NCBI RefSeq assembly: GCF_000504085.1
Contig: NC_022792.1
Location: forward strand, 1,764,001-1,828,000
Direction of reading: 5' to 3'
Source: Pseudothermotoga elfii DSM 9442 = NBRC 107921
Lineage (GTDB): Bacteria; Thermotogota; Thermotogae; Thermotogales; DSM-5069
Length of the DNA stretch: 64,000 nucleotides
The translations under genes and the position numbers were made by a program. Below are positions 1,590 to 29,728 of the stretch, piece after piece. The notes under the pieces were generated by a model, which was not told where the DNA came from, did no database searches, and worked only from the letters and a program-made list of their open reading frames with translations. Each line of letters starts with the position of its first letter. Within the stretch, counting starts at the first letter, position 1.

Positions 1590-3026
1590 ATGAAAGTACT
1601 AACTTCTTTCTTTTTGATTGTCTCCGTTTTTCTATTTGCAACCACTTTTCCAGCAAGAATAAGTGTTTTATTGAGCAATGAATTAGACAATGCGGGAACA
1701 ACAAAAGGTTATGTTTTTAACGAGGTGAAAATCGAGTGTTTAAGTGAAACATCTATCGAAGCCCAATCTTTTGAAAAAGGATCCGTGGTAATAATCAAAC
1801 CGGGAGCAAACGGATTGTTAATGAATGATACACAGATCAACTCAGATTCAATAACAATTAAGGGAATGATCAAGGTTCTTTCGGCAAAGCGCTCCTATGG
1901 AACACCCGTTTATGAAGACACCATCTTAGTAAAAATGATCGATAAGGGGATAATACTTATAAACGAATTAGACATCGAAAACTACGTGAAATACGTTGTA
2001 CCAAGTGAAGTACCAGGTTGGTTTGAAAAAGAAGCTATAAAAGCACAGGCAGTTCTTGCAAGAAGTCGCGCCATCGCTGATGTTCTAAAAGGTCCTAAGG
2101 ATAATTTCTATGGGGCCCACTGCGACGATAGTACGAAAAGCCAGGTTTTTAACAACAAAGAAATTTCCGAAATCGTTGAAAAAGCTGTTGAAGAAACACA
2201 GGGGAAAATTATGTTTGTAAATGGATATCCCGTAGAAACAGTGGTTTACTTTTCAACATCATGTGGTTTTACATCAAACAATGAGGAAGTATGGAGTGAT
2301 GAACAGGGCAATTTTCCAGGTGCGGTTATACCTTATCTCAGGTCAAAACCACAATTTGGAAAACTCTTAGTTGAAAACAAAAATGAGGAATTCTGGAATA
2401 AATTTTTCAGAGCTTTCTGGGGCATTGAAAAAGAACTATGTGATTTTTACGACAGAGAGTCCCCATGGTTCAGATGGAAAGTAACCATGACACGTGAAGA
2501 ACTTGAAAATGTCATCAGCAAGGGTTTGATTGCGAGAGAAAAAGCTGACCAGCTTTTAGGGGTAGATGCAATAAGAACTCTGCAGGGGATTCCTGTAGAT
2601 ATTAATAATGCTAACTTTTCTATTGGGGAACTCAAAGATTTAAAAATTGTCAGAAGAGGAGAAGGTGGAATAGTTATGACGCTCAGGATAGTATCGGAGA
2701 ATGGAATTTATGAAATAGACAAGGAATACAACATCAGATTCATTATACGCCCGACCAAAAGTCTCACAGGCTTTAACAGGGATATAATCATTGAACGGCA
2801 TGATGGTTCTACTTACAGTAATTATTCTATACTGCCAAGTGGATACTTTGTATTTGACATTGATAGAGAAAATGGAAAAATAAAACAAGTTACTTTTTAT
2901 GGTGGAGGAAATGGCCACGGTGTTGGAATGAGTCAGTACGGAGCCAACTACCTTGCCAAAATTGGGAAAAACTATCAACAAATATTAAAAACTTTCTACG
3001 AAGGCAAGATAGAAAATATCTTTTAA
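1590..3026 (+). CDS. SpoIID/LytB domain protein
   Basis: A 478-residue secreted protein with an N-terminal signal peptide (hydrophobic residues 4-20). The SpoIID region begins near residue 135 with VVPSEVPGWF and then an EAIKAQAVLARSRA stretch, and ends near residues 438-452 with the signature GNGHGVGMSQYGA. In spore formers SpoIID is a peptidoglycan lytic transglycosylase and LytB an amidase enhancer; in this non-sporing lineage a role in cell-wall remodelling is likely. The region near residues 245-420 is longer than a minimal SpoIID domain. The start is set by GGAGGTGATCGT before the ATG. It ends in a hairpin shared with the convergent gene. Confidence 0.85.
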   Translation: MKVLTSFFLIVSVFLFATTFPARISVLLSNELDNAGTTKGYVFNEVKIECLSETSIEAQSFEKGSVVIIKPGANGLLMNDTQINSDSITIKGMIKVLSAKRSYGTPVYEDTILVKMIDKGIILINELDIENYVKYVVPSEVPGWFEKEAIKAQAVLARSRAIADVLKGPKDNFYGAHCDDSTKSQVFNNKEISEIVEKAVEETQGKIMFVNGYPVETVVYFSTSCGFTSNNEEVWSDEQGNFPGAVIPYLRSKPQFGKLLVENKNEEFWNKFFRAFWGIEKELCDFYDRESPWFRWKVTMTREELENVISKGLIAREKADQLLGVDAIRTLQGIPVDINNANFSIGELKDLKIVRRGEGGIVMTLRIVSENGIYEIDKEYNIRFIIRPTKSLTGFNRDIIIERHDGSTYSNYSILPSGYFVFDIDRENGKIKQVTFYGGGNGHGVGMSQYGANYLAKIGKNYQQILKTFYEGKIENIF

Positions 3027-3047
3027 GGGAGCCTTACAGGCTCCCTT
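3025..3047. terminator. Bidirectional terminator hairpin
   Basis: A perfect 10-bp stem, AAGGGAGCCT/AGGCTCCCTT with loop TAC, lies between convergent genes. It overlaps the stop codon of the SpoIID gene. Pyrimidine- and T-rich sequence follows on both strands. Confidence 0.8.
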
Positions 3048-3048
3048 C

Positions 3049-5043
3049 TTATTTGGATAAATCGATAAAAGCAATTGTTCCATTCATAGAGGCTACCAGA
3101 ACCCCAGATTTATACGGATAAGCCTTTGAAAATATAAACCCGGGTCCAAGATAAAGCTTTTCCAGAACCTCTCCCTTTTCCAGATCAAGAAAGAAAATAT
3201 TACCGTCAATCGTGCAAACGACCAACATTTCTTCTCCCACAATCCTGGGAGATGAATCATAGATTTGTCCGTCTACATTTGATTTCCACAGAATTTCCCC
3301 ATCTACAGGATTGAATTTATAGATCGTACCATTTATGTTTGAAACATACGCATTTCCAGAGTTGTCTTTTTCCACAGAAGAATATCCAGCTCCCAGGGAA
3401 GATTTTCTCCATCTTTTTGTTTTCATTGAAATATTTTGCCCATGTAAAGCACCTGATGTATTTGTGAAAACAATCCAGTCATCGAACAATTCCGGTGTGC
3501 ATGGGGCAGCTGTTTCATATCCAGCTCCAACTGCAAAGTTCTTGACCAATTTTCCGTTCTCATCAATAATCGAAAGGACACCTCCCCACGATGTTTGCAG
3601 AAAATAAGGGGATACAAATCTTGCTGGTGATTGCACTGTACCATACATGTAGAATTTATAAATTATTCTTCCACAATCTGGATCTACAAGATACAGATTT
3701 TCACCACTTCCAACAGCTATATTTTTTTGCCCGGATGATATAGAAAAAACCGGACAATCAAAATTCATGGACCATATTTCATCAAAAGTCTCAAGATCAT
3801 ATGCCGCAAGATTTCCCATTAAATCTCCAAAAATAAGTTTTCTACCCCTTACAACAACATTTGAAACAAAAGGACCTGAAAATTTTTTCTTCCACAACAA
3901 TTTACCATAGTCATCGAGTACATAAACTGTGCCTGATAAATCTGCAAAACATATTTTGCCATCTGAGCAAACAGGATTTGAGAAAACTCCGTCTGAAGCC
4001 TGAAATTTCCATAGCAACTTTGATGAATCAAAATCAGAGAAGATATAGCGTTCAGTAAAACCATCAACGCCTTCAGCAAGAATCTTTGCAAATATACAAG
4101 CATCATTGTGCAACTCAACAGGTACTTCGAGCCGCTTTTCGAAATCTGAAAACTTCTTAAAAATTGAATTGTTAATTGTGAGAGTTATCTGTTTTATGCC
4201 TTCTGTTTCAAAATATAATGAAACCCCTTTTTCACCAATCTTTCTCAGATTAACCTTCAAAATCTGAGAGTATCTTCTTTCTTTTCCTGCAGGAATTTGC
4301 CTTATAAGATTGCAAACACCATCAGTATTCAAAGCCCATAAAAATATTTCGCCATCTTCCCAGCTTAAAACCGTGTACCAACCATCCTTAGCTGCACCAA
4401 CCATCTGAAACCAGGCACCATTGTACATACCCTTAATATCATAGCTGTGCCCATGACCAACTAAAACAACTGGGACATTTGAATCATTTATCAAGTTCAT
4501 CAATTTCCAGCCATCATCTGTAAAATTAGCTGGCCCGCCAAAAGGATGATGGGCCATTATCACAACCGGCTTTTCACTTTGTTTGAGTCTCGTCTCGATC
4601 CACTGCAATTGAAGAATTCCTATATGACCATGGTGCTCAAAGTACATCGATGTATCTACACCGAGAAATTCAAAAGGTCCAGCATCAATACAAAATCCCT
4701 TAAAACCACTCTCGCCTTTTCTGTTTCTCGGTGACCATCTTGTATCATGATTTCCAGGCGTTTCATAAACGTCTATTTCATAACTGTTCAATCTGGATAT
4801 GATCTTATCCAGTTCAGAAAACTCATAATCAGACCCCATCTCTGTCAAATCACCGAGGATAAAAACCGCCCCTGGCTTAATTTCGCAAACTTGATCTATC
4901 AGAAACTCGACCTTTTCTTTTGCAAAAGGAAAATGAAGATCACTTAAAATTACGACAAATCCTTCATGATTCAAAAACGGATGTTTTGAAAACGCATATA
5001 TCGACAGGGACAGAAATACCATTAAGAAAAGTGTTTTTTTCAT
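3049..5043 (-). CDS. Secreted calcineurin-like metallophosphatase with PQQ/WD-type beta-propeller
   Basis: A 664-residue protein with a signal peptide (residues 1-19). The phosphatase half shows the metal-binding motifs in order: SDLH (34-37), GDLTE (64-68), GNHD (97-100), HHPF (165-168) and GHGH (196-199). From about residue 345 to the end there are repeated blade-like units containing A/SDxxGxxY and WxxxxD patterns, as in PQQ-like propellers. No quinone-enzyme residues are evident, so the propeller is probably a binding platform. The phosphoester substrate is unknown. It is the last gene of a run of exported proteins and overlaps the amidase gene by four bases. The fusion of a secreted phosphatase to a propeller is the odd feature. 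Confidence 0.82.
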   Translation of the reverse strand: MKKTLFLMVFLSLSIYAFSKHPFLNHEGFVVILSDLHFPFAKEKVEFLIDQVCEIKPGAVFILGDLTEMGSDYEFSELDKIISRLNSYEIDVYETPGNHDTRWSPRNRKGESGFKGFCIDAGPFEFLGVDTSMYFEHHGHIGILQLQWIETRLKQSEKPVVIMAHHPFGGPANFTDDGWKLMNLINDSNVPVVLVGHGHSYDIKGMYNGAWFQMVGAAKDGWYTVLSWEDGEIFLWALNTDGVCNLIRQIPAGKERRYSQILKVNLRKIGEKGVSLYFETEGIKQITLTINNSIFKKFSDFEKRLEVPVELHNDACIFAKILAEGVDGFTERYIFSDFDSSKLLWKFQASDGVFSNPVCSDGKICFADLSGTVYVLDDYGKLLWKKKFSGPFVSNVVVRGRKLIFGDLMGNLAAYDLETFDEIWSMNFDCPVFSISSGQKNIAVGSGENLYLVDPDCGRIIYKFYMYGTVQSPARFVSPYFLQTSWGGVLSIIDENGKLVKNFAVGAGYETAAPCTPELFDDWIVFTNTSGALHGQNISMKTKRWRKSSLGAGYSSVEKDNSGNAYVSNINGTIYKFNPVDGEILWKSNVDGQIYDSSPRIVGEEMLVVCTIDGNIFFLDLEKGEVLEKLYLGPGFIFSKAYPYKSGVLVASMNGTIAFIDLSK

Positions 5044-6620
5044 CCAATACCTCCTGCTTTTTTAAGTAACTCAATTGCTCTGTCTAACTCTTTCTCATCT
5101 GATAGAAAGAAAGTTTCATATCTCGGTTTTAGATTTATATTGAGGCTTATCAGAAATATGAAATCAACAGAAGAAGCTCTCCTCATGAGATTTATCTCGT
5201 CTCTTTTGCTTTGAACTATTACAATCTCTGCATCACATCCATAATTTTGTAGGATTTGAGCTATCTTCTCAAAACTCTCTTTCCGCTCTGATGCAGCTAT
5301 TATTATTTTTTTGCCTTTCAAAAATCCTTCAAGTGTTCTGTTAACCCGAATACTTTTGAAGCTCACCGGTTTTACCGGTGTCTGGTTGTATATAACCCTC
5401 TCATAACCGTCGTATGAAATAGTTACTGGTTCGCCAGTATTTTCAATTATTCCAAGAAATGTCCCATCATCGCTATAAATAGAAACAACTTCTACCCAGG
5501 TGTCACCGGAAAAAAGCAATGGTACAGTTAATTCAGTGGCTTCGTAAGAAACAGTGATACACACTTCATCTATCCCCATGTACGGAATTATCAGGGAATT
5601 TCCACTTTTTGTGATAAAACCATCACTCACTTTTACAGATAATGGTTCTTTATCTACGCAATGCCTTCTTGCATAAGGAATCAGATCTATTTTATAATAA
5701 CTACCAGCAATTGCAGGCGCTCTATCTGGAAAGATTTCAATCTTGACTGAATCAACAGGCGGATTGAATTGTATCCATTTTGTATATTTTTTCGAATAAA
5801 CACCATTCTTTCCAATTGCATATACTGTTAAGAAATATTTTCCTGGTGAGATATTCTCCGGCACAGAAATAAATAAACGATCTTGCTGAATCTCTACGTT
5901 GAGTGGTTGTTTATCAAAAAAGGCAAAAGCTTTATCTATATTCTGAGAACAATCTATATTAAAATCCCAACTGTTTATTTCTTCAACAGCTTCAAGGTTT
6001 AATTCAGGTATCTCACTGTCAAAAAGCCGGCAGATGGCCTCTTTATAAGCTATCGCGACAGCTTTGAGATTTTCTTCCTCGTTTAACCATTGCTCTCTTT
6101 CTTCATTGGAAACATGACATGGCTCTCCCAAAACAGCAGGGACTTTTACTTCTCTCATTAAATAAACATCACCAGGTCCAGCATCACCCGAAGTGCCAAC
6201 ATATTTTTTGAAAGATTCTATAAGATAATCTGCAACATTTCTTGCATAATCAGCAGAATATGCTGAATAATAGGCTATGGAAAAATCAGAATTAGGGGTA
6301 TTTTTCATAGAATTGAAATGTATACTCACAAAAAGATCGGCATCAACCCTGTTTGCAAGATTTGCCCTTTCAGCCAGGCTCACAGTCCTGTCAGAAGTTC
6401 TTGTCATGATAACTGTTGCACCACATTCTTCAAGTAACTCGCGCAAATATTTTGCAACTTTTAAATTTATATCTGCTTCTTCAAGAATAGTTCCAGTGGC
6501 ACCGCGATCTTCTTTCCCACCATGACCGGGATCAACTACGATCAATTTTCCAATCAGGCTGGCAAAAAGTAGATTAAAGGAGCACAAACTAAGCAAAATT
6601 AACAATAAACGCCTTTTCAT
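5040..6620 (-). CDS. N-acetylmuramoyl-L-alanine amidase (amidase_3) with C-terminal extension
   Basis: Cuts the bond between MurNAc and the stem peptide of peptidoglycan. The 526-residue protein starts with a signal peptide (1-20). The zinc amidase domain runs to about residue 210: VVDPGHGG around residue 30, a glutamate in EEADINLK near 48, SIHFNS near 100, and a late catalytic-type Glu in LGEPCHVSNEE. The remaining 300 residues look like beta-rich Ig-like domains plus a small alpha/beta segment, of unknown role. It sits in the secreted-enzyme operon and overlaps the next gene by four bases (ATGA). Confidence 0.88.
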   Translation of the reverse strand: MKRRLLLILLSLCSFNLLFASLIGKLIVVDPGHGGKEDRGATGTILEEADINLKVAKYLRELLEECGATVIMTRTSDRTVSLAERANLANRVDADLFVSIHFNSMKNTPNSDFSIAYYSAYSADYARNVADYLIESFKKYVGTSGDAGPGDVYLMREVKVPAVLGEPCHVSNEEREQWLNEEENLKAVAIAYKEAICRLFDSEIPELNLEAVEEINSWDFNIDCSQNIDKAFAFFDKQPLNVEIQQDRLFISVPENISPGKYFLTVYAIGKNGVYSKKYTKWIQFNPPVDSVKIEIFPDRAPAIAGSYYKIDLIPYARRHCVDKEPLSVKVSDGFITKSGNSLIIPYMGIDEVCITVSYEATELTVPLLFSGDTWVEVVSIYSDDGTFLGIIENTGEPVTISYDGYERVIYNQTPVKPVSFKSIRVNRTLEGFLKGKKIIIAASERKESFEKIAQILQNYGCDAEIVIVQSKRDEINLMRRASSVDFIFLISLNINLKPRYETFFLSDEKELDRAIELLKKAGGIG

Positions 6621-6638
6621 AAAACCACCACTCCTTAA

Positions 6639-6669
6639 AACAAAGGGGAGAATTGCTCTCCCCTTTGTT
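6639..6669 (-). terminator. Intra-operon hairpin before the amidase gene
   Basis: A 13-bp stem (AACAAAGGGGAGA with its complement, loop ATTGC) overlaps the stop of the upstream gene and is followed on the minus strand by TTTTAAGG. It can act as a partial terminator or mRNA stabiliser, since the amidase ribosome site follows directly. Confidence 0.7.
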
Positions 6670-7469
6670 CACTTTTTCATGAAGTAATCAATGATATTTG
6701 CAAGGAGCAGCTGAACCATTGGTTCATCAAAGTTTGGGTTCAAAAAGAGATCTTCACCGACGTATATACAATTCTTTCCTTCTATGATCGCAGCATTGAC
6801 ATCTGGCATGTGACTTGGAGTTTCCATATCATCGTTGTACCATTCTCCAAGAACGGCCGCATCTTCCAAAATCTCAACAACCATAGCCCAGTGCCTTGGA
6901 GTAGCTACAAACTCATCGATCCCTTCCCATATTGGATGATCTGCAACTTTTTTTATATAGCCATGCACAGGAGGTTTCCAGGCAAACGCGCTGTACGAAA
7001 CTTTGAAAATATCTCCGAGAGCAAATACAGTACTGACATCATAGGAAGAATTGTTATGGTTTCTAAAAGAAGCCTGTGCCAAGGCAAAAACATAGCCACC
7101 ATTGCTTATGAATTTTTTCACAGCTTCAATTTCCAAAGGCGACATGCGCCTTGTGTTAGGAAGTATAAGGAGTTTAATTTTGCTCATATCAAAAATTCTT
7201 TCGAATTTGATCACTGGATCTGCCTCGGGATTGGCATACAATTCCAGATCTCTGTTGAAAACAGGGACACAGCTGTAACCAAGACCTTTAACGAAATCGA
7301 ATATGCGTTTCATTTCCCCAAGATAATCCCAGTCGGAACCAGAGAAGCCAAGTTCGGCATACCATCGAGCCGTATAATCACTCATCAAAACCCCGACAAC
7401 CTGCTGTTCATCAGCCAGGACTGGAACAAATAAAACTGCCAGAGCCAGGACAATCAGAAATTTTTTCAT
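6669..7469 (-). CDS. Secreted ThuA/class I GATase-like protein
   Basis: A 266-residue protein with a signal peptide ending near ADEQ. The body is an alpha/beta flavodoxin-like fold: a strand reading LLILPNTRRM, then LEIEAVKKFISNGGYVFALAQ, which is typical of ThuA-like or trehalose-utilisation glutamine-amidotransferase folds that lack a clear nucleophile elbow. I see no Cys-His-Glu triad, so it may bind rather than cut. The ATG at 7469 is chosen over the GTG at 7475 because AAGGAGG is eight bases before the ATG. It lies between a GHL10-type hydrolase and the amidase, so a role in glycan or wall turnover is likely but unproven. Confidence 0.6.
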   Translation of the reverse strand: MKKFLIVLALAVLFVPVLADEQQVVGVLMSDYTARWYAELGFSGSDWDYLGEMKRIFDFVKGLGYSCVPVFNRDLELYANPEADPVIKFERIFDMSKIKLLILPNTRRMSPLEIEAVKKFISNGGYVFALAQASFRNHNNSSYDVSTVFALGDIFKVSYSAFAWKPPVHGYIKKVADHPIWEGIDEFVATPRHWAMVVEILEDAAVLGEWYNDDMETPSHMPDVNAAIIEGKNCIYVGEDLFLNPNFDEPMVQLLLANIIDYFMKK

Positions 7470-7484
7470 GCTCACTACCTCCTT

Positions 7485-8588
7485 TTAAAAATTCAATCTG
7501 GCGATATCCGCCACATATTTTCTTACTTTTTCATCAAGCAAATTTTCAAAAGAGAAAATCAAAATCTCATCTGGCCGATATTTTTCTACAACACTTTTTG
7601 CTATTTCATATAATTTTTCAGGATTCTCTGTCATTTTGTAGGCTCCAAGACCAACCCTTATTTTCTCAGCTGCTCCAAGCGCTTTTACAGCGTACTTAAC
7701 ATAATATTCAACAGTATCTCTGTTATTCTCATAAGCCATTAAACAAGCATAATCCAAATATTCTCCCTCTAACCATTGCAACCACCCCTGAAGTCTCTGG
7801 CTTATCGCATCTTGTTCATAGTAAGCAAAGACAGCAGCAGACAGTTTTTTACCGTAGTTATGGACTTTTTCGTAGATTAACTTAACAGTATCGGAAACCT
7901 GTTGTATTCTGAAAAGATCGAAACCTTCCCCAAGATTGGTCAACTTTTTCTCCTGAATAGCCTTTTTTAGCCACTCTCTATATATCTTCATCGCTTCTGG
8001 ATGATAACCAAATGTTTTGTAGGGATATCTAATATAATCAAGATGTATCTCATCAACATCATAATTTTTTGCAATTTCTTCAGCAATATTGCTCACAAAT
8101 TTTTTTACATCTTCAAGCGCTGGCTCCAGGAATAAACCAGGTGTGTTTATTTCGGGTGAGGATGCATACTCAAGCATACTTTTTCCATTTTGATCATAAG
8201 TTATCCAATCAGGATGAACATTAACTACATGTTTTTCAGAAACTGGTTTTTTTCCAAAAGGCCAGGCATAGAAAACATTCATCCAGGCTGAAATTTTTAT
8301 TCCACTAATCTTTGCTAAATCTATTATCTCTTTGAGAGGATCGAAATCTGGCGAACATTCAGAAAGGGTTTCGGCTTTCGGCAAAATTTCAGAGTTGTAA
8401 TAAGCATCAGCTCTACCAACAACTTGGACATATATCCTTGTTGCTCCCACTTCTTTCGCTATTTCTATTACCCTGTTAATTTTCTCTATGGAAGTTATTT
8501 GATCTCTTACAACCCATATGCCAAGTGGATAGGGCATTAAAGTTGTTGTCACAAGTAAAACAAGAAAAAGATTAACCTTTCGTGCCAC
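7485..8588 (-). CDS. GHL10/DUF4015-like putative glycoside hydrolase, secreted
   Basis: A 367-residue protein with a signal-like N-terminus. It looks like a (beta/alpha)8 barrel of the hypothetical glycoside hydrolase families: GIWVVRD on strand 1, ISAWMNVFYAWP, then DEIHLDYIRYPYK, whose acidic residues match the conserved HxDYIRYP signature, and later DYACLMAYENN. The substrate is unknown. A GTG start at 8588 overlaps the end of the permease gene by 17 bases and has a poor ribosome site, so translation is probably coupled. Its position next to a sugar importer suggests that it releases the imported saccharide. Confidence 0.78.
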   Translation of the reverse strand: MARKVNLFLVLLVTTTLMPYPLGIWVVRDQITSIEKINRVIEIAKEVGATRIYVQVVGRADAYYNSEILPKAETLSECSPDFDPLKEIIDLAKISGIKISAWMNVFYAWPFGKKPVSEKHVVNVHPDWITYDQNGKSMLEYASSPEINTPGLFLEPALEDVKKFVSNIAEEIAKNYDVDEIHLDYIRYPYKTFGYHPEAMKIYREWLKKAIQEKKLTNLGEGFDLFRIQQVSDTVKLIYEKVHNYGKKLSAAVFAYYEQDAISQRLQGWLQWLEGEYLDYACLMAYENNRDTVEYYVKYAVKALGAAEKIRVGLGAYKMTENPEKLYEIAKSVVEKYRPDEILIFSFENLLDEKVRKYVADIARLNF

Positions 8589-9393
8589 CTGTCATCAATC
8601 CCTTCACAAAATATCTCTGGAAAGCAAAGAAGATAACAACCATAGGTATAGCGGAGACCATGGAACCAGCCATCTGCAAACCGAACTGCGTCATCTCAAG
8701 TCTCTGCAATGTTGCCAGTCCAACTGTCAAAGGATATTTTGAGGGCGTGTTCAAAACTATTAATGGCCATAGGAAGGCATTCCAGGATGAAATAAAAGTA
8801 AAAATGGAAGCAGCTGCGATAACTGGTTTACTCATGGGTAATATTACCCTCCAATAAATTCCCCACTCTGTAGCTCCGTCAATTCTCGCAGCGTCCATAT
8901 AGTCTTGAGAGATAGAAAACATAAATTGCCTCATCATAAAGATTGTATAAGGGCTCGCAAGTGATGGGATTATTACAGCCCATAGAGTATCAAGTAATCC
9001 AAATTTATTTATCAAGAGAAACGCCGGTAAAAGTGTTACCTGGGGTGGAACCATTATTGTGGAAACTATAGCTGTAAACAGCAATCTTTTTCCTTTGAAA
9101 TTCATTTTTGCCAGGGCATAAGCTGCTAAGGAGCAGACAAATATTGAACCAGCTGTGATTGAAATGCTTATAAGCAAACTGTTCACTGACCAGTCCCAGA
9201 TTTGAGAATATGTGAATAAATCCCTGAAATTTTGCAAAGTTGGTCTTGAAGGAAAGAGCTTAGGGGGAATTTGTCTTATATCTTCCTCTGGAGTAAGCGA
9301 TGTTTGTGCCATCCAGTAAAGAGGAAAAAGCGTTGATACAGACCATATTCCTAAAACCAGTGCAATAGCCAGCAACTTGAAAATCTTTTTCAA
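8572..9393 (-). CDS. Carbohydrate ABC transporter permease (MalG type)
   Basis: An inner-membrane protein of about 273 residues with six predicted membrane helices. The cytoplasmic EAA loop, which docks the ATPase, reads DYMDAARIDGATEWGIYWRVILPM. The TTG at 9393 is chosen because GGGAGGG lies seven bases upstream; an ATG at 9408 lies inside that ribosome site. It overlaps the neighbouring permease gene. No ATPase gene is in the operon, so a shared MsmK/UgpC-type ATPase encoded elsewhere is needed. Confidence 0.92.
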   Translation of the reverse strand: MKKIFKLLAIALVLGIWSVSTLFPLYWMAQTSLTPEEDIRQIPPKLFPSRPTLQNFRDLFTYSQIWDWSVNSLLISISITAGSIFVCSLAAYALAKMNFKGKRLLFTAIVSTIMVPPQVTLLPAFLLINKFGLLDTLWAVIIPSLASPYTIFMMRQFMFSISQDYMDAARIDGATEWGIYWRVILPMSKPVIAAASIFTFISSWNAFLWPLIVLNTPSKYPLTVGLATLQRLEMTQFGLQMAGSMVSAIPMVVIFFAFQRYFVKGLMTGGTKG

Positions 9394-9395
9394 TC

Positions 9396-10265
9396 TCAGC
9401 CCTCCCATTCGTAAGAACGCGACAAAGATTTGAACTGAAAGATAGATATCACTACAGCTATAGAGAAAAATACTAAGGAGATAGCTGAAGCAAGACCATA
9501 ATTGAAATCTCTGAAAGCAGTTGTGTAAATAAGATAAACCAGAGTTATTGTCGAATTTCCAGGACCACCACCTGTGAGTACATAAATTTTGTCAAAAACA
9601 CTTATAGCTGCTATCGTATAAACAACTGTTAGATAGAGTGTGGTGGGAGTCACAAGTGGGATTGTTATCTTCAACCATTTATAAAATCCAGACGCGCCAT
9701 CTAATTCAGCTGCCTCATAGAGTGATTTTGGTATATTGTTTATTGCCGCAAGATAAAGAATCACTCCCGAACCAGGCGCAATAACCATGTCAGTTAGAAT
9801 TATCGACCACATAGCCATTGAAGGGTCCACGAGCCAAGGAACAGGACCAGCACCTATCTTGGTCAGGAAAGTATTTATCGGCCCGAAAGAGTAATTTAAA
9901 AGCCATCCCCAAACAATACCTATGACCACTGTTGCAGTAACCGTTGGAAGATAATAAATTGCTCGAAAAAGGCTTTGAGCTTTTTCTGATAATGGAGCAA
10001 GAAGTGAAGCAAGCATAAGAGCGACAGAAATATTCTTTAAAACATTAAATGAAGCATACCACATGGTATTTCTCAAGGCAATCCAGAAATCGCTATTCTG
10101 AAAAACTTCTTTGAAATTCTCGAAACCAACCCATTCATTACCAAATATTCCAACATTCTGGAACGCCATTACAAAAGCCATCACAACAGGAACGAAGGTA
10201 AAAATTATAAAGATAATCGTAGCAGGAGCGACAAAGAAATAAGCACTGATCTTTCTACGTAGCAA
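9396..10265 (-). CDS. Carbohydrate ABC transporter permease (MalF type)
   Basis: A 289-residue partner permease with six membrane helices. The EAA loop is LYEAAELDGASGFYKWLKITIPL, followed by the family's VFDKIYVLTGGGPG segment near residue 230. A TTG start follows AAGGGGAGA. It lies two bases after the binding-protein gene. Together with the MalG-type permease it forms the import channel; the sugar cannot be told from sequence. Confidence 0.93.
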   Translation of the reverse strand: MLRRKISAYFFVAPATIIFIIFTFVPVVMAFVMAFQNVGIFGNEWVGFENFKEVFQNSDFWIALRNTMWYASFNVLKNISVALMLASLLAPLSEKAQSLFRAIYYLPTVTATVVIGIVWGWLLNYSFGPINTFLTKIGAGPVPWLVDPSMAMWSIILTDMVIAPGSGVILYLAAINNIPKSLYEAAELDGASGFYKWLKITIPLVTPTTLYLTVVYTIAAISVFDKIYVLTGGGPGNSTITLVYLIYTTAFRDFNYGLASAISLVFFSIAVVISIFQFKSLSRSYEWEG

Positions 10266-10267
10266 TA

Positions 10268-11536
10268 TTATCTCCCCTTCTTTGTGCTTTCTATTATCCG
10301 TGTTACGTTCTTATCTGCATCTTCCAGAGCCTTTCTTGCATCTTTTTTTCCAAGCAAAACAAGCTGAATCTCTCTTGAGATAGCTTCCATTATCTTTTCT
10401 TTAGCTGGATGGGGAGGAAAAACATAATTGTGCTGGGATATCAAGTTTGCCTTGAACATCAATGGATCGTTTTCATATATATTTCCTGCGCTCTTCTTTG
10501 TTGGAAATTGTCCATATTTCGTCAGTTCCTTTTGCTGTTCAGAAGATGTTATATACTTCGCAAACTCAATAACTGCCTTCAATTTCTCCACATCATTCTG
10601 CACAAATACTTGATATGAAGAAACATCGCCAAAACTCCAGAAACTATCACCCTTGTTCTTTACTGGATATGGGACCACATCTATTTCGAGACCAGCATTA
10701 ATGAGGGCTGGAATTGCCCACGTTCCAGTAACATAAATGGCAGCTTTACCGCTTCTGAATAACGTATACGCATCAGCATCACCATAAGAAGCCATAAAAG
10801 GAGGCGCACAGTCTGCAAAAACCTTTGCAAGCCATTCTAATGATTGTTTGTTCTCCTCATTCACAATCGCAGACCTTAAATCTTTCCCCTGACCTTCTAC
10901 AAATTTTCCTCCCCATCCAAGCACAAATGGCCACAAATGGGAATTATCTGGTGCTGGAAAACCACTCGCAACGAATCCATATACATCAATTTTGCCGTCT
11001 GAGTTTCTATCAAAGGTCAACTTTTTTGCAATCTCATAGAATTCGTCAAAAGTCCATGGGTTTTCGACAGATGGTATTTGCACAGACATTTCATCAAAAA
11101 TCTTTTTATTGACAATAACTACCTTTGTCGTCATATAAAATGGAAAACCGTACATCTTTCCTTCATAAGTTGCCCCTTTGATTGCTTCAGAATAGTAATC
11201 CATCTTCTCTTCCTCGGTGAGATAATCATCGATGTTTTGAAGAACCCCCTGTACTACATAATGGGTTCTAAGAGGGCCTCGGGTGAGATCTGGCCACTTT
11301 TTTGAAGCAACAGCAAGGTCCAGTTTTTGATCTCCACCGCTCCATGGTATTTCTGTAAGTTTAAATTCAATGCCTGGGCATGATTCCGAAAATTTAGACA
11401 TCATTCTCTTCAACCAGGCATAGTTATCTCCATCTTCACTCCAGGCTGGAAAATCCCATATGTATATTGTGCCCGCCCAGGAAAACAATGTGGTACAAAT
11501 AGCCACAAAAACTAAAATTGAAGAAAGCTTTTTCAC
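10268..11536 (-). CDS. Sugar ABC transporter substrate-binding protein (family 1)
   Basis: About 422 residues with a signal peptide ending near FSWAG, then a mature domain of the extracellular solute-binding family 1. There is an early WDFPAWSEDG segment and WTFDEFYEIAKKLT in the middle. The GTG at 11536 is chosen because AAGGAGGTG lies just upstream; an earlier GTG at 11554 is part of a leader that overlaps the NlpC/P60 gene. It captures the sugar outside the membrane for the two following permeases. The ligand is unknown; the neighbours suggest an oligosaccharide from glycan breakdown. Confidence 0.92.
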   Translation of the reverse strand: MKKLSSILVFVAICTTLFSWAGTIYIWDFPAWSEDGDNYAWLKRMMSKFSESCPGIEFKLTEIPWSGGDQKLDLAVASKKWPDLTRGPLRTHYVVQGVLQNIDDYLTEEEKMDYYSEAIKGATYEGKMYGFPFYMTTKVVIVNKKIFDEMSVQIPSVENPWTFDEFYEIAKKLTFDRNSDGKIDVYGFVASGFPAPDNSHLWPFVLGWGGKFVEGQGKDLRSAIVNEENKQSLEWLAKVFADCAPPFMASYGDADAYTLFRSGKAAIYVTGTWAIPALINAGLEIDVVPYPVKNKGDSFWSFGDVSSYQVFVQNDVEKLKAVIEFAKYITSSEQQKELTKYGQFPTKKSAGNIYENDPLMFKANLISQHNYVFPPHPAKEKIMEAISREIQLVLLGKKDARKALEDADKNVTRIIESTKKGR

Positions 11537-11550
11537 TTTAAACACCTCCT

Positions 11551-12378
11551 TCACATAATCTCAGTAAATTTTAGAATTTTTGTATCGTAAGAAAAAGCAT
11601 CACGCGTTCCTAAAGAAATTCTGACTTTAAAATACACATAAATATTTTGTACATCATCTGTTGGTATATGTACTTTCAAAACATTTTCATCTAAAGAATA
11701 AATATCTAAATCATACGAAGATTTCCAGATAACTTCATCCGTCATGTAATCAAGCATCTCTACCTGAAGAGTGTATCCACTCAAAAAAGGCAAAGCATAA
11801 TAATGTATTGTGAGATCCACTCCATCATCTCTGAAAAAATAATTTGGTGGTTCTTCAACATAAACATATGGGAAAGATGGGTTTTCATGAAGCCAGAGTC
11901 TCACCAAGAGCGAGAAATAACAAAACCTGTTTCCTGTTTGGCCATAAGGAGCAAACCTGTTTTCACCCCTTATATCAAAAACACCTATACCATATTTTCC
12001 TCCACGTGCTTCTATAGTCTTGTAATTTCCTTTATATATACCAGCATGGAACCCAACTGTATGGCCGCCACCGTTAAAAAGAAGATCACCTGCCAGAAGT
12101 TCTTCAGCTTTGTCGAAATAAACCCAGAGTAGATCACTTCTACCAATTATCATGTGATCGATTCTTTCATTTTCATCTAATGCGGTATGATAAACCCACG
12201 TGGCAAAATTCCAACAATCAAATACTCTGTTTTCTGGATCGTAACTCCCCCACCCATACTCTCCACCGACCATGGTCATTGCATAGTTAATAACTTTTCT
12301 TTGCAAGGGATTCAGGTAATTTCCGAAAATAAGCCCGGCTATCAAAATCGCAAGCCAAAACAAAACAGATTTCCTCAT
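11551..12378 (-). CDS. Secreted NlpC/P60-type cysteine peptidase-like protein
   Basis: About 275 residues with a signal peptide. The NlpC/P60-like core has YGWGSYDPENRVFDCWNF with a candidate nucleophile Cys, and later a His in TVGFHAGIYKG, followed by EARGG. The C-terminal 110 residues look like a beta-rich appended domain. Such enzymes cut peptidoglycan stem peptides or act as amidases. The ATG at 12378 is chosen because GGGGGTA lies eight bases upstream; the longer frame from 12399 has no ribosome site. It is the first gene of the minus-strand secreted-enzyme and sugar-import operon, next to a large palindrome at 12424-12457. Confidence 0.72.
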   Translation of the reverse strand: MRKSVLFWLAILIAGLIFGNYLNPLQRKVINYAMTMVGGEYGWGSYDPENRVFDCWNFATWVYHTALDENERIDHMIIGRSDLLWVYFDKAEELLAGDLLFNGGGHTVGFHAGIYKGNYKTIEARGGKYGIGVFDIRGENRFAPYGQTGNRFCYFSLLVRLWLHENPSFPYVYVEEPPNYFFRDDGVDLTIHYYALPFLSGYTLQVEMLDYMTDEVIWKSSYDLDIYSLDENVLKVHIPTDDVQNIYVYFKVRISLGTRDAFSYDTKILKFTEIM

Positions 12379-12423
12379 AATCTTACCCCCATGGTTCACA
12401 TAATTATGTTACCACAATAGATA

Positions 12424-12627: not shown

Positions 12628-12659
12628 TGCACAAATGTGCATTATTGCACAAATGTGCA
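12628..12659 (+). promoter_or_regulatory. Tandem operator: two copies of TGCACAAATGTGCA
   Basis: Identical 14-base palindromes (arms TGCACA/TGTGCA, centre AA) lie at 12628-12641 and 12646-12659, with starts 18 bases apart. They fall just after the -10 box, where a bound repressor would block transcription. The best candidate binder is the SorC-family regulator encoded last in the same operon (21656-22579); this link is inferred. Confidence 0.7.
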
Positions 12660-13736: not shown

Positions 13737-13750
13737 GAAAGGGGGAATTG

Positions 13751-13771: not shown

Positions 13772-13779
13772 TTCCTAAT

Positions 13780-16280: not shown

Positions 16281-16298
16281 TTAAGGAGGTCGAAGCAG

Positions 16299-17501: not shown

Positions 17502-17515
17502 AAGGAGGAAATGAT

Positions 17516-18553: not shown

Positions 18554-18571
18554 CTTCGGAGGTGATGTTCA

Positions 18572-23187: not shown

Positions 23188-24015
23188 CTACTTGTTTTTT
23201 GGATCGAGAAGGTCTCTCAAACCATCTCCAAGAATATTCAGGTTCAAAACAATGAGGGCTATGACAAATCCCGGGAACAGTGTTACCCATGGGGCACTGA
23301 GCAAAAATGCCGTGCCCTGACCAACCAGACCACCAAGGGTTGGTTCTGGTGGTGGCACGCTCAATCCAAGAAAACCAAGCGATGCCTCGGTGAGAAAAGC
23401 TGTAGAGAGATTAGTTGTGAAAGTGACAATCAATATTGAAGATAAATTTAATAGCACATCTTCAATCATTATTTTTAAATCACTTTTTCCTATTACCTTT
23501 GACGCCTTTACAAACAAACTCTCTCTAATAGATAAAGCAGCTCCTCGTACCGTTCTTGCAAAAATCGGTATATAAACTACACCAACAGCGATTATCATAT
23601 TAATAAGGGTTGCACCAAACAGTGCTACTATAAAAAGCGCCAGAATCAACGAGGGAAATGCAAAAAACCCGTCGCAAATCCTCATGATCAACAAATCCCA
23701 GAAACCACCATAATATCCAGCTATCAATCCCAGAATTGAACCAAAAAACGAGGCAATCAAAATCGAGCTGAACGCGATTATCACACTTTTCTGAAGACCA
23801 AAAATACATCTTGAAAAAATATCCCTGCCGAATTGATCTGTTCCAAAAAAATGCTTTAAAGAAGGCGGTTCGAGTATAGCGTTGTAATCCATCGAATAAG
23901 GGTCGTAAGGTGAAAAAATTTCCGGAATAAAGGCTATAATTATAACTGCCAGCAAAACTACTAAGGAAATGAGATTCAAATAATTTTTGAAAAACCTTCT
24001 TATTGTTTTATTCAT
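23188..24015 (-). CDS. Peptide-type ABC transporter permease (DppC/OppC family)
   Basis: A 275-residue inner-membrane protein with about six helices. It has the N-terminal OppC segment HFFGTDQFGRDIFSRCIFG and the family loop GLSVPPPEPTLGGLVGQG near the end. It pairs with the DppB-type permease ten bases upstream. No DppD/DppF ATPase genes follow; a terminator comes next, so ATPases must be encoded elsewhere. Context suggests import of cell-wall fragments. Confidence 0.93.
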   Translation of the reverse strand: MNKTIRRFFKNYLNLISLVVLLAVIIIAFIPEIFSPYDPYSMDYNAILEPPSLKHFFGTDQFGRDIFSRCIFGLQKSVIIAFSSILIASFFGSILGLIAGYYGGFWDLLIMRICDGFFAFPSLILALFIVALFGATLINMIIAVGVVYIPIFARTVRGAALSIRESLFVKASKVIGKSDLKIMIEDVLLNLSSILIVTFTTNLSTAFLTEASLGFLGLSVPPPEPTLGGLVGQGTAFLLSAPWVTLFPGFVIALIVLNLNILGDGLRDLLDPKNK

Positions 24016-24024
24016 CGTGAAACC

Positions 24025-24978
24025 TCACTTTAACTCGACTCGAGGATCAATTAGTGTATATATGAAATCAACAACTATGTTCAGAGCAACTATTATCAAG
24101 GCTATGAACATCACCACAAACTGTATTACTGGATAATCTCTCTCGTTAACCGCTTGTAAAAGTAATCTTCCCAGCCCCGGCAGAGCAAACATGTTTTCTA
24201 TAACAATCGTCCCTGCCAGAAGATATCCAAGCTGGATGCCTGAAAGTGTTATGATCGGTATCAGAGCATTTTTAAGAGCATGTTTTCCTATGAGTTTTGA
24301 GTAGCTTACTCCTTTTGCTTTTGCGGTCTTTATATATTCTTGCTGTAAAACATCGAGCATTGATGATCTTGTCATTCTCATAATCTGAGCCGAAAGCATC
24401 AAACCAAGTGTCAGAGATGGCAGGAACATAACCTGCAGGTTCTTCAAGAAATCTTCTTGCATGCGCACATAACCAAAAATGTTAAAGCCTTTGAATAACC
24501 CCGCGAAGATGACAATCAAAATCGCCCCCACCCAGAAAGATGGGGACGAAAGGCCTACCAATCCAATAACTCTGACCAGACCATCGGTGAAAGAATTTTT
24601 CTTGATAGCAGCGATGATACCAAGTGGAATTCCTATAATAGTTGCGAAAAACATCGATAATATAGATAATTCCAGAGTCACAGGAAATCTATCGGCTATC
24701 AGGGCTGCCACCTTTTTTCCTGACCTTAACGACGTTCCAAAATCAAGTGTCACTAAATTTTTTAACCATACACCAAATTGAACAATCAAAGGTTTATCAA
24801 GCCCATATTGTTTGTACAGTTCTTGTATTTGTTCTTGAGTCAAATAATTTTGAGTTCCAAGCATCATATCTACGACATCGCCCGGAACAAGGTGTATTAT
24901 TATAAAAACTACAAAAGCAACAAACAGAACTGTTGGAATTGATGTGATAATACGTCTTATAAGATAACCGAAACTCAC
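24025..24978 (-). CDS. Peptide-type ABC transporter permease (DppB/OppB family)
   Basis: A 317-residue inner-membrane protein with six helices. It has the family's HLVPGDVVDMMLGTQ segment near residue 30, LDFGTSLRSGKKV near 95, and the C-terminal EAA-type loop around EYIKTAKAKGVSYSKLIGKHALKNALIPI. The ATG overlaps the binding-protein stop by four bases, so the two are translationally coupled. Confidence 0.94.
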   Translation of the reverse strand: MSFGYLIRRIITSIPTVLFVAFVVFIIIHLVPGDVVDMMLGTQNYLTQEQIQELYKQYGLDKPLIVQFGVWLKNLVTLDFGTSLRSGKKVAALIADRFPVTLELSILSMFFATIIGIPLGIIAAIKKNSFTDGLVRVIGLVGLSSPSFWVGAILIVIFAGLFKGFNIFGYVRMQEDFLKNLQVMFLPSLTLGLMLSAQIMRMTRSSMLDVLQQEYIKTAKAKGVSYSKLIGKHALKNALIPIITLSGIQLGYLLAGTIVIENMFALPGLGRLLLQAVNERDYPVIQFVVMFIALIIVALNIVVDFIYTLIDPRVELK

Positions 24979-26468
24979 TTCTTATAGGTCTCCCTTAAAA
25001 ATACAAGACTCTCGTTTGCAAGAAGTTTGAAACCTTCAACAGATGCATTACTCACAAAGACCTGATTTGCACTGTACAGGAATATAACGGGTGATTCTTT
25101 TACGATGATCCTTTGCAATTCATCGTAGATAGCCTTTCTCTTTGATATGTCGACTTCACTTCTCCCGAGATCGAGTAATTCATCAACCCTTGGATTTGAA
25201 TACAGGAAAACATTTGTCGATCCACCGGTATGGAATGTTCTGTAAAATTGAATATCAGGTTCTATTGATCCGCTGTTCATAGAAATGAAGGCATCGAAAT
25301 CGCTCTCACGCCACTTTTTGACGAATATACCCCATTCGACCAGGTTGATCTTCACTTTAACACCGATTTCCGCAAGTTGAGCTTGAATAACCTGCGCAAC
25401 TTTATCGAAATTATATCTCTGTGATGCTACAATTTCGAACTCAAAACCATTTGGATAACCAGCTTGTGCCAAAAGCTCTTTTGCCTTTGCAGGATTGTAT
25501 GTGTATTCATCAAAAGCCTTTGGTTGAAGTGCCCATGGCTGAACAGCTGGATTCAACGGGCCTGTTACTACTCCTTCGGAAAAAGCAACAGCTTTTATAA
25601 TGGCTTCTCTGTTGATAGCGTAGTTAAGCGCATTTCTCACCCTTGGATCGTTCAAAGGTTTTCTCGTGGTGTTAATACCTATCAGGTAATAACTGAGTAC
25701 CGGTGATCTGTAGATTTTGAATTTACCTTCTGGGAATTGCTTGAGATTCAATGGCTCATTGATCTTGGCTATATCAACATCGCCATTCTTCAAAGCCGCT
25801 ACTCTGGAAACTTCTTCGGGCATGAAAACGATTCTGATTTCATCGAATTTGGGTTGATCTTTCACAAAGTAATAAGGATTTTTCTTCAAAATGATGTAAT
25901 TCCCGGGTACATATTCGGCTAAATAGAATGGACCTGTTCCGTTTGTTTCAAGTTGCATATTTTTTCCAGATTCAACAAATTTTTTGGAAACTATTGAGCT
26001 ATTCACGCCCGCGAAATTAGGTAAAAGTGCGCTTGCCATGGGTTTTTTCAGCTTGAACTCGATTTTGTTGTTGTCTATGGCTTTGATAGATTCGACATCT
26101 TGATAAAACGCGGCAGCAGGAGATTTTGTGTCCGGATCCAATATTCTTTGAAAACTGAAAAGCACATCCTCAACGGTTAAAGGAGTCCCATCGTGAAATT
26201 TCACACCCTCCCTGATTTTGAAAATAATTGTATAAGGATCCACAGCTTTGGCTTCTTCGGCAAGGTTTGGTATTAATCTCATATTTTCATCATATCTGAA
26301 TAAACCATCGTAGATATTTTCCAAAACCCTGTGAGATGCGAAAGCTGTAACAAGGTGTGGATCAAGACCTACAGGTTCTGTTTCCATAGCGATAATCAAT
26401 CTTCCATCAGCTGCAAAAATCCCAGCTACTGCAAAAACTGCCAGAATAGCTACCAAAAACTTCTTCAT
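24975..26468 (-). CDS. Peptide-type substrate-binding protein (solute-binding family 5)
   Basis: About 497 residues with a signal peptide (MKKFLVAILAVFAVAGIFAADG). The family 5 pattern is clear: an early LDPHLVTAFASHRVLENIYDGLF segment, VKFHDGTPLTVEDVLFSFQR, and LNDPRVRNALNYAINREAIIKAV. Family members bind peptides, nickel or oligosaccharides. The ATG at 26468 is preferred because AAAGGGGG lies upstream; the longer frame runs back into the GntR gene. With nagZ and murQ in the same run, a muropeptide or GlcNAc-MurNAc-type ligand is a reasonable guess. Confidence 0.92.
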   Translation of the reverse strand: MKKFLVAILAVFAVAGIFAADGRLIIAMETEPVGLDPHLVTAFASHRVLENIYDGLFRYDENMRLIPNLAEEAKAVDPYTIIFKIREGVKFHDGTPLTVEDVLFSFQRILDPDTKSPAAAFYQDVESIKAIDNNKIEFKLKKPMASALLPNFAGVNSSIVSKKFVESGKNMQLETNGTGPFYLAEYVPGNYIILKKNPYYFVKDQPKFDEIRIVFMPEEVSRVAALKNGDVDIAKINEPLNLKQFPEGKFKIYRSPVLSYYLIGINTTRKPLNDPRVRNALNYAINREAIIKAVAFSEGVVTGPLNPAVQPWALQPKAFDEYTYNPAKAKELLAQAGYPNGFEFEIVASQRYNFDKVAQVIQAQLAEIGVKVKINLVEWGIFVKKWRESDFDAFISMNSGSIEPDIQFYRTFHTGGSTNVFLYSNPRVDELLDLGRSEVDISKRKAIYDELQRIIVKESPVIFLYSANQVFVSNASVEGFKLLANESLVFLRETYKK

Positions 26469-26490
26469 GAAAGCACCCCCTTTATGGTTT

Positions 26491-27240
26491 TCATTTTTCA
26501 AAAACACCAGTTGTTTTTAGTTCGATTTTGAATCTGTATTTGTCTCCTCTATAAATAGATCTGACAAATTCCAGGCATTTGTTAGCTGTAGTGTAAGTGT
26601 AACGTTTTCTAAGCAAAGCGCACAGGCCTGCTGAAACATTCAAATATTTAGCATCCATGCCAGATACTTGCGTGACCTCAAGAATCTCGTATGCCCTCAA
26701 AAGCGGCAATTTCAAATCTGCTCTTAAAAAATCATAGAGAGATTCCTTTGACATATCTCTTTTCAGGATATTCAGTAATCTGACATCAACAGAAGTATTC
26801 AAATAAGCACTTTCTATTGCCACGGGCTCTTCGTTCATATAACGCACTCGTTTCAGCAATATAACCATTGTCCCCTGGTCAATCGCAAATACCTCTGCAA
26901 GATCTGGTGGAACCTCCACCAATTTGTTTTCAAGAACGATGGATTTTACGGCGAATCCTTCTTCTTTCGCTTTGTCAGTGAAACCTTTAAGTACATTCAT
27001 CTGCTCTTCTTCTTTCTTACCAGTGATAAAAGTACCTCTGCCCTTTGCTCTCGTTATAAAACCTTCTGATCTCAATTCCTCAAGAGCTCTTCTAACTGTT
27101 AATCTGCTCACATTATAGATTTGCACCAGCTCAGATTCGGGTGGTATTCTATCACCTGGTTTGTAGACACCATCAAGAATTTTCTGCCTCAAATTCTGAT
27201 AAACTTTGTAATAAAGCGGAATGGGGTATTCTTTATCCAT
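26491..27240 (-). CDS. GntR/HutC-family transcriptional regulator
   Basis: About 249 residues. The winged helix-turn-helix at residues 8-72 contains GDRIPPESELVQIYNVSRLTVRRALEEL and RGRGTFI; the UTRA effector domain follows (about 90-240). Such regulators often sense amino-sugar phosphates. The ATG at 27240 follows AAGGGGA. Sitting between murQ and the importer, it probably controls this operon; a candidate site is the 13-base palindrome at 29745-29757. Confidence 0.9.
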   Translation of the reverse strand: MDKEYPIPLYYKVYQNLRQKILDGVYKPGDRIPPESELVQIYNVSRLTVRRALEELRSEGFITRAKGRGTFITGKKEEEQMNVLKGFTDKAKEEGFAVKSIVLENKLVEVPPDLAEVFAIDQGTMVILLKRVRYMNEEPVAIESAYLNTSVDVRLLNILKRDMSKESLYDFLRADLKLPLLRAYEILEVTQVSGMDAKYLNVSAGLCALLRKRYTYTTANKCLEFVRSIYRGDKYRFKIELKTTGVFEK

Positions 27241-27293
27241 TTTCAATCCCCTTTCTCATAAATTTTAGCGATGTTTAAATAATAGCAAAAAAC

Positions 27294-28193
27294 TTATCTA
27301 ACTGCTATCTGTAAAGCTTTTCTAAGATTTGATTGATCTTGTAGTATTTTTCTGCATTCCTCGACATCATTTTTTGACAAAATCATCAATACCGCTACTT
27401 TCACATTGTAATCAGCTTTCTTTAAATAAATCTCTGCTGTCTGTTTATCTACACCTGTTATGTGAGTAACTATATTCTGAGCTCTTTCTCTAAGTTTTTC
27501 ATTTAAAACCATAACATCAACCATGAGGTTGTCGTAAACCTTGCCCATCTTAACCATAACAGTTGTACTTATCATATTTAGAATCATCTTCTGCGCTGTG
27601 CCGGCTTTCATTCTCGTGCTGCCCGCTACAACCTCTGGCCCAGTTTCAGCAGCAATCACAACATCAGCGTATTCGGCCAGAAGAGGTTTTCTCACATTAC
27701 ATATCAGAGCGGTTTTACAACCACACTGCTTAGCATATCTTAAAGCACCTGCTACATAAGGTGTCCTTCCACTGGCAGCTATTCCAATAACAACATCTTT
27801 TTCAGAAGGTTTGTAGAAAAATAGATCATTTTTTCCACCTTCTTCATCATCTTCTACGCCTTCTACAGATTTTCCAAGTGCTTGAGTGCCACCCGCTATT
27901 ATTGGAATAAATACACCCTCCTGCAGGCTGTAAGTGGGAATCAATTCAACAGCATCTACATATGCAACTCTACCACTCGTTCCAGCTCCTACATAAAATA
28001 CGCGTCCGTTCTTTTCAAGGCAGTTTATACACATTTGGACAACCTTATCTATTTCTGCCAACACCTCTCTTATTGCGAGAGCCACAAGTGCGTCTTCTTC
28101 GTTAATGAGTTTGAGTATTTCGAAAGTATCTCTCGCATCAAGATTTCTTGTTTTGGGATTCACCATTTCTGTAGGTAAATTGGACAGACTCAT
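27294..28193 (-). CDS. murQ: N-acetylmuramic acid 6-phosphate etherase
   Basis: Splits the lactyl ether of MurNAc-6-phosphate to give GlcNAc-6-phosphate and D-lactate. The 299-residue length is normal. It is a SIS-domain protein: GAGTSGRVAYVDAVEL near residue 70, GVEDDEEGG near 115 with the conserved acidic residues, AASGRTPYVAGAL, and the signature STRMKAGTAQKMILNM near 200. It overlaps nagZ by four bases. The D-lactate it releases could feed the GlcD-type dehydrogenase encoded next to nagZ on the other strand. Confidence 0.96.
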   Translation of the reverse strand: MSLSNLPTEMVNPKTRNLDARDTFEILKLINEEDALVALAIREVLAEIDKVVQMCINCLEKNGRVFYVGAGTSGRVAYVDAVELIPTYSLQEGVFIPIIAGGTQALGKSVEGVEDDEEGGKNDLFFYKPSEKDVVIGIAASGRTPYVAGALRYAKQCGCKTALICNVRKPLLAEYADVVIAAETGPEVVAGSTRMKAGTAQKMILNMISTTVMVKMGKVYDNLMVDVMVLNEKLRERAQNIVTHITGVDKQTAEIYLKKADYNVKVAVLMILSKNDVEECRKILQDQSNLRKALQIAVR

Positions 28194-29698: not shown

Positions 29699-29728
29699 AT
29701 CCATCCTCCTTAATGAATTTCTGGGATT

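Follow-up and report, generated by a model that had tools for sequence, protein, structure and literature searches.

A probable peptidoglycan-scavenging operon in Pseudothermotoga elfii and a tentative route from N-acetylmuramic acid to lactate oxidation in Thermotogota

The N-acetylmuramic acid (MurNAc) cluster of Bacillus subtilis reads murQ-murR-murP-amiE-nagZ-ybbC (PMC5061867). Elsewhere, two GHL10 proteins have been studied well: Escherichia coli DigH degrades glycan that amidases have denuded (PMC12288456), and Clostridioides difficile Cwp19 is a lytic transglycosylase (PMC6016235). In this report, we describe an operon of eight genes, designated A to H, from Pseudothermotoga elfii DSM 9442 (contig NC_022792.1, positions 1,764,001 to 1,828,000; this stretch of 64,000 nucleotides is referred to as the window). 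Judged from its gene content and from its setting in another genome, the operon is probably a peptidoglycan-scavenging module. Its predicted logic appears to be that of the B. subtilis cluster, with an ATP-binding cassette (ABC) importer and an added set of secreted enzymes as the new elements.

The likeness to B. subtilis is seen in another Thermotogota genome that carries genes A to G, herein called G019. There, an amidase, NagZ, NamZ, MurQ, a regulator and an importer are encoded together, a grouping that is not present at the window's own operon. We take YbbC of B. subtilis to be NamZ. The differences are several. The importer is of the ABC type, whereas MurP belongs to the phosphotransferase system (PTS); a GntR/UTRA regulator stands in place of MurR, and an Amidase_3 protein in place of AmiE. 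Further, NamZ and the NagZ-type enzyme lack signal peptides, and NlpC/P60, GHL10 and ThuA-fold proteins are added. Protein E resembles DigH in being a secreted GHL10 protein (the GHL10 Pfam model also matches in E. coli), but E is divergent and is encoded with an importer, whereas no importer adjoins digH. The closest solved relative of E is Cwp19, the sole relative in the PDB with an E-value below 0.01 (8e-10). Cwp19 has wall-binding repeats (PMC6016235); E has none by Pfam, and it also appears, from alignment, to lack Arg132 and one Asp of that protein. Finally, B-C-D is of the CUT1 type, as is a Thermotogota importer that adjoins NamZ (L054 5934-8940). The binding protein of the latter is different, occurs in 29 of the 103 Thermotogota genomes surveyed (P. 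elfii included) and comes without the secreted enzyme set.

A preliminary description of this DNA, made from the letters alone, had placed these genes on one strand with overlaps or short gaps, and this is confirmed for all eight (Table 1): the intergenic distances are -4 (A/B), +2 (B/C), -13 (C/D), -17 (D/E), +9 (E/F), +48 (F/G) and -4 bases (G/H), a range of -17 to +48. The signal peptides that it saw in nearly all of the products are likewise borne out, in that A, B, E, F, G and H (six of eight) have a strong hydrophobic N-terminal stretch according to a hydropathy heuristic, which is not equivalent to a signal-peptide predictor. All domain calls on the operon's open reading frames (ORFs) are Pfam models over their curated cut-offs; such matches uphold the NlpC/P60, GHL10-like, amidase and phosphatase-propeller identities, as well as the claim of an importer without its own ATPase, because a Pfam scan of the eight ORFs found B-C-D and no ATPase gene. 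B-C-D would thus be a CUT1 sugar importer with its ATPase encoded elsewhere, and either of the two MalK-type ATPases in the genome (at 90,264 and 1,358,066, outside the operon) is a candidate. The ORF of A extends to 12399, and an internal ATG lies at 12378, the boundary given earlier. The hairpin between F and G has a counterpart in G019 and none between those genes in G086, a third genome with the operon. Given this hairpin and the one following H, the expression of G and H may differ from that of A-F. The convergent SpoIID/LytB-domain neighbor may also act on wall glycan.

Table 1. Positions of the operon, its flanking elements and the MurQ cluster in the window
Feature	Coordinates	Strand	Assignment and basis
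Operon A-B-C-D-E-F-G-H	12399 down to 3049	-	eight ORFs
A	11551..12399	-	secreted NlpC/P60 protein; likely start 12378; PF00877 31.1 bits (cut-off 23)
B	10268..11554	-	solute-binding protein of CUT1-type sugar importer; PF13416 (SBP_bac_8) and PF01547 (SBP_bac_1) over cut-off
C	9396..10265	-	importer permease; PF00528 (BPD_transp_1) over cut-off; 69% identity with G019
D	8572..9408	-	importer permease; PF00528 (BPD_transp_1) over cut-off; 69% identity with G019
E	7485..8588	-	secreted GHL10 glycosidase-like protein; PF02638 91.9 bits (cut-off 27.9)
F	6669..7475	-	secreted ThuA/GATase-like-fold protein (basis: fold match); proposed GHL10 partner
G	5040..6620	-	secreted N-acetylmuramoyl-L-alanine amidase (Amidase_3) with C-terminal extension; PF01520 162.9 bits (cut-off 27)
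H	3049..5043	-	secreted metallophosphoesterase-PQQ-type propeller fusion; PF00149 (Metallophos) and PF13360 (PQQ_2); accessory
Hairpin F/G	6639..6669	-	12-13 bp stem; RNA fold -19.4 kcal/mol; possible partial terminator or processing site
Hairpin H/SpoIID	3025..3047	.	between convergent genes; -15.2 kcal/mol (22 intergenic bases); likely two-way terminator
SpoIID/LytB-domain protein	1590..3026	+	convergent neighbor of H; PF08486 and TIGR02669 over cut-off
Dpp/Opp-type peptide importer	23188..26507	-	binding protein 24975-26507 (PF00496); permeases 24025-24978 and 23188-24015 (position, by eye)
GntR/UTRA regulator	26491..27246	-	adjoins MurQ; PF00392 and PF07702
MurQ, MurNAc-6-phosphate etherase	27294..28193	-	TIGR00274 343 bits (cut-off 302)
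NagZ-type GH3 beta-N-acetylhexosaminidase	28190..29704	-	NF003740 250 bits (cut-off 207); KHFPGKGSVEVDAH stretch; no signal peptide seen
EtfB	29819..30619	+	closest in PDB to bifurcating electron-transferring flavoproteins
EtfA	30529..31566	+	PF00766 and PF01012; overlaps EtfB ORF, start uncertain
LctD-like FAD-linked lactate dehydrogenase	31550..32953	+	closest PDB chain LctD of Acetobacterium woodii Ldh-EtfAB, E 2e-105

The strongest pointer to a substrate is the setting of the operon in G019. In that genome, a BadF-type kinase, a GntR/UTRA regulator, MurQ (over its equivalog cut-off, at 326.7 bits), a NagZ-type GH3 enzyme and NamZ lie on one strand; A-G are divergent from them, and EtfB-EtfA-LctD begins 102 bases after G. 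Because the operon is situated between these two groups of genes, peptidoglycan glycan is the best-supported candidate substrate, the enzyme activities being predicted ones and the ligand a putative one. That both of the well-studied GHL10 proteins we encountered, Cwp19 and DigH, act on wall glycan supports this assignment by analogy. The earlier proposal that the locus trims wall glycan outside the membrane and imports the freed sugar is supported in part, by the MurNAc flank in G019 and by the pairing of an amidase with a GHL10 protein.

The orthologs of A in all three genomes retain FDCWNF and FHxGIY, which we take to be the Cys-His motifs of NlpC/P60 proteins, and those of G all retain DPGHGG, EA, [IL]H[FH]N and LGEP stretches, presumably the zinc-ligand motifs of Amidase_3. 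We envision that A would cut stem peptides outside the membrane, and that G would remove stems from MurNAc to leave denuded glycan. This glycan would be cut by E, probably with F as its partner, into short GlcNAc-MurNAc oligosaccharides (GlcNAc, N-acetylglucosamine), which B-C-D would import at the expense of a shared ATPase encoded elsewhere. As judged by hydropathy, none of NamZ, the NagZ-type protein and MurQ has a signal-peptide-like start; the intact saccharide would thus have to be imported first. In the cytoplasm, NamZ, the NagZ-type GH3 enzyme, a kinase (BadF-type or AnmK) and MurQ would then yield GlcNAc-6-phosphate and D-lactate, which are the MurQ products named in PMC5061867 and PMC3022706.

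Several observations weigh against peptidoglycan as the substrate. The nearest solved chains to B are maltose-binding proteins (E 6.8e-20), which are too distant for naming a ligand, and among binding proteins B comes closest to MalE and those of the GanS type. Moreover, a different member of GHL10, DogH, reportedly liberates maltose when acting on starch (PMC9967864). These same facts would favor an ordinary importer of alpha-glucans or plant oligosaccharides that lies beside wall enzymes by chance. We consider such an importer very improbable, since A-G occur together, in order, with MurNAc genes adjoining in G019, and Pfam finds no amylase-type or glucosidase-type domain in the operon. Similarity to MalE at the level of B (E 6.8e-20) is what any CUT1 binding protein would be expected to show. 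A second set of contrary points resides in E, which has Tyr at the position of Cwp19 Arg132 (ungapped alignment) and a single Asp in place of the Asp195-Asp196 pair, with two alignments placing that Asp differently. Arg132 and the Asp pair are among the proposed active-site residues of Cwp19, although the source labels the role of Arg132 as conjecture (PMC5765458).

The remaining contrary points concern linkage. In the window, MurQ, the NagZ-type gene and the GntR gene are ~15 kb from the operon, with unrelated genes between, and the operon is directly linked to MurNAc genes in only one of the three genomes (G019), the contigs of G086 being split. The window's cluster, from 23188 to 32953, equals the inner set of G019 minus NamZ and the kinase, and its NagZ-type/MurQ/GntR/importer genes are divergent from EtfB-EtfA-LctD. 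In P. elfii, NamZ lies at 428,950 and follows a different importer of the CUT1 type, such that this genome already carries a NamZ-linked importer besides B-C-D. The binding protein of that importer is found in neither G019 nor G086, both of which have NamZ; B-C-D may thus replace the NamZ-linked importer in these two genomes. Lastly, a search for an operator shared by the operon with the MurQ cluster yielded none. A palindrome script (score of at least 7) gave nothing in the intergenic stretches upstream of A, of NagZ-type/EtfB and of the NamZ importer, or in the NamZ/A interval of G019. An alignment of eight intergenic stretches from the family of P. elfii (f1) shows a conserved TTTACA...TATAAG promoter-like element that points to EtfB and is not an operator shared with A.

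AnmK of P. elfii is encoded at 1.606-1.615 Mb (L149 6338-15221; G000:C1:1606338-1615221) next to genes for a member of the beta-lactamase family, an importer of the Opp type that has two ATPases (importer labels by eye) and a divergent BadF-type kinase. The score of this kinase, 38.5, is far under the NagK equivalog cut-off of 370, so that no sugar is assigned to it. The locus may offer wall fragments that still bear peptide a second way in. The order in G086 is NamZ, a beta-lactamase-like gene (by eye) and AnmK.

P. elfii has four GHL10 genes at three loci, all of which also encode a binding protein and a pair of permeases. Three of the four are at two loci apart from the operon, both with CUT1-type importers: one with NanE, ROK and RpiR, the other with GH20, BadF and SIS. 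This company ties GHL10 to N-acetylhexosamine (HexNAc) glycans generally, not to peptidoglycan alone. It therefore lends some support to the notion that the operon serves another HexNAc-bearing envelope glycan, for instance that of a sheath or a secondary wall polymer, in which case the amidase and NlpC/P60 proteins would only open the wall for access; a DYIRYP-like stretch that E has in common with the other GHL10 copies of this genome, and not with DigH or Cwp19, points the same way. We nevertheless regard this explanation as unlikely, because two peptidoglycan-type enzymes are in the operon and because the operon in G019 adjoins NamZ and MurQ, which are MurNAc-specific. At the first of the two loci (L020; G000:C1:92000-108000), a GHL10 protein of ~960-990 residues with an F-like domain is near the CUT1-type importer, DUF4127, ROK, NanE and RpiR genes. 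The second (L021; G000:C1:1628000-1646000) has two GHL10 proteins, the CUT1-type importer, GH20, a BadF-type kinase, two SIS proteins and a 409-residue neighbor without a Pfam match. A locus of G019 (L023; G019:C1:1243000-1259000) encodes a ~960-990-residue protein joining an F-like domain to GHL10, together with a CUT1-type importer, DUF4127, ROK, NanE and a GH84-like gene; its labels other than BLAST matches were assigned by eye.

These fusions bear on F, which had been described as ThuA-like and as having no known partner. The first of these statements stands with respect to fold: the best solved match to a predicted model of F (pLDDT, a per-residue confidence score, 68) is the ThuA-like protein 1t0b (Z 16.9, root-mean-square deviation 3.4, 200 residues aligned), with other GATase-like folds ranking closely beneath it. 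No family model backs the name, as F has no Pfam match over cut-off and only weak matches to PF09822 and PF08532. The second statement requires correction. F shares 22-26% identity with a domain at the N-terminus of larger proteins, which mostly have ~970 residues (the alignment of F comprised the three orthologs and six others from six genomes, and ten larger proteins were among the matches listed). Two of these ten were checked for GHL10, and both have it: the P. elfii protein matches the Pfam model, with GHL10 following the F-like domain, and the G019 protein matches E in BLAST. Since an F-like domain and GHL10 form one protein elsewhere, E and F are likely partners.

Conserved-neighborhood analysis across Thermotogota showed that the seven-gene set A-G recurs, in three of the 103 genomes and three families. 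Orthologs of A and of B are limited to the same three: P. elfii (f1), G086 (f3) and G019 (f9). Full-length orthologs of F are present in these genomes as well (66-68% identity), with partial matches in others. G019 has A-B-C-D-E-F-G in identical order, at 42-69% identity to P. elfii, and G086 has A-B-C-D-E on one contig and F-G on another. That so few genomes span three families suggests horizontal transfer of the operon, with gene loss as the alternative. Scans of genome contigs for relatives of F beyond Thermotogota gave none, the sole match being a metagenome-assembled contig equal to C203 of G086; they use short conserved patterns and may miss relatives.

The patchy distribution also bears on the purpose of the operon. 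It could act in recycling of the organism's own wall during growth and division instead of feeding on other cells, a proposal that competes with the scavenging part of our interpretation only, the chemistry being the same. Proteins of the SpoIID and Amidase_3 kinds often take part when cells turn over their own wall. Further, DigH and amidases work at the division septum of E. coli (PMC12288456), and recycling of own-wall MurNAc has been shown in Gram-positive models (PMC5061867). Own-wall recycling is a serious possibility, though we lean somewhat against it: presence in three of 103 genomes fits an optional food better than housekeeping. The two roles are not exclusive; the same chemistry serves both, and sequence cannot separate them.

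The distribution of H is different. Homologs occur in ten of the 103 genomes (nine besides P. elfii), none of them G019 or G086; H is thus in the operon in one of its three holders. We rejected it as a core part, and the earlier inclusion of the phosphatase-propeller protein as a working component is not supported. Five of the nine other loci were retrieved (L058-L062), and L061 (G070:C1:1685000-1699000) was read gene by gene. There, the H homolog is alone between hybrid-cluster-like and DUF523/1722-like genes, with no adjoining wall genes except a penicillin-binding-like gene and, further off, a MurJ-like gene (all by eye).

The proximity of MurQ to EtfB-EtfA-LctD extends beyond the genomes with the operon. 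MurQ is over its cut-off in 55 of the 103 genomes and an LctD homolog is present in 52; both occur in 45, MurQ only in 10, LctD only in 7 and neither in 41 (Fisher p 3e-12, an overstated value in that related genomes are counted as independent). The two genes are on different contigs in 20 of the 45 and on one contig in 25, where their separation is <5 kb in 15 genomes, 13.3 kb in G019, 22-37 kb in six and >390 kb in three. The 13.3-kb interval in G019 contains operon A-G. The 15 genomes with close spacing belong to families f1, f3, f7 and f9; LctD homologs of f8 and f10 have 42-45% identity, and none is <5 kb from MurQ. Gene order, as labeled by best BLAST match to our own reference set, is divergent in f1, MurQ-kinase-EtfB-EtfA-LctD in f7 and NamZ-MurQ-EtfB-EtfA-LctD in one f9 genus. 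Such variation among families argues against a single ancestral arrangement passed on without change.

Like Ldh-EtfAB (LctBCD) of A. woodii, the genes described here combine an LctD-like dehydrogenase with EtfB and EtfA. The A. woodii genes are, we presume, a lactate-use operon; those described here, in contrast, are beside MurQ. By our own reading, LctD keeps seven of the ten active-site residues listed in PMC9232219. The same source gives the EtfB motifs as DGDTAQVGP, RXFXG and SPT; G019 has DGETGQVGP, RRFAG and SPT, and P. elfii has DGETGQVGI, PFFAG and SPT. Because two of its motifs deviate from the published form, confurcation is less sure in P. elfii than in G019. We tentatively propose, at something near an even chance, that MurNAc breakdown in part of the Thermotogota is wired to energy-linked lactate oxidation: D-lactate from MurQ would be converted to pyruvate by the adjacent Ldh-EtfAB-type confurcating enzyme, and the operon would supply this route from outside the cell, the whole forming one locus in G019. 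Neither the best 15 of 49 listed papers nor three others, unrelated by title, joined MurQ to an Etf-type lactate dehydrogenase, in a search whose coverage excluded most subscription journals.

Upstream of the operon, on the plus strand, genes from 12690 to 22579 encode a ribose-type ABC importer and, after it, the enzymes S-methyl-5-thioribose kinase and isomerase (TIGR01767 at 484 bits and TIGR00512 at 438 bits, respectively), a split transketolase pair, a DeoR/LsrR-like regulator and a RuBisCO-like protein (203 bits, under the MtnW-type cut-off of 409). This looks like an operon through which methylthioribose, or a sugar like it, is taken up and salvaged. Just upstream of it, at 12628-12659, the palindrome TGCACAAATGTGCA is present in two perfect copies 18 bases apart; with one mismatch allowed, it has three matches in the window versus 0.31 expected. 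The pair was set aside as an operator for A, since it adjoins the opposite gene (12690), and is likely an operator of the methylthioribose-type operon.

If our principal conclusion is correct, these thermophiles feed on dead bacterial walls by means of a dedicated operon, in which an ABC importer would stand in for the PTS importer of model bacteria and a GHL10 enzyme would be added for the glycan. The ThuA-fold protein would also gain a testable partner. Further, the fate of D-lactate derived from MurQ in strict fermenters is raised as a question, for which the electron-confurcating lactate dehydrogenase is a candidate answer.

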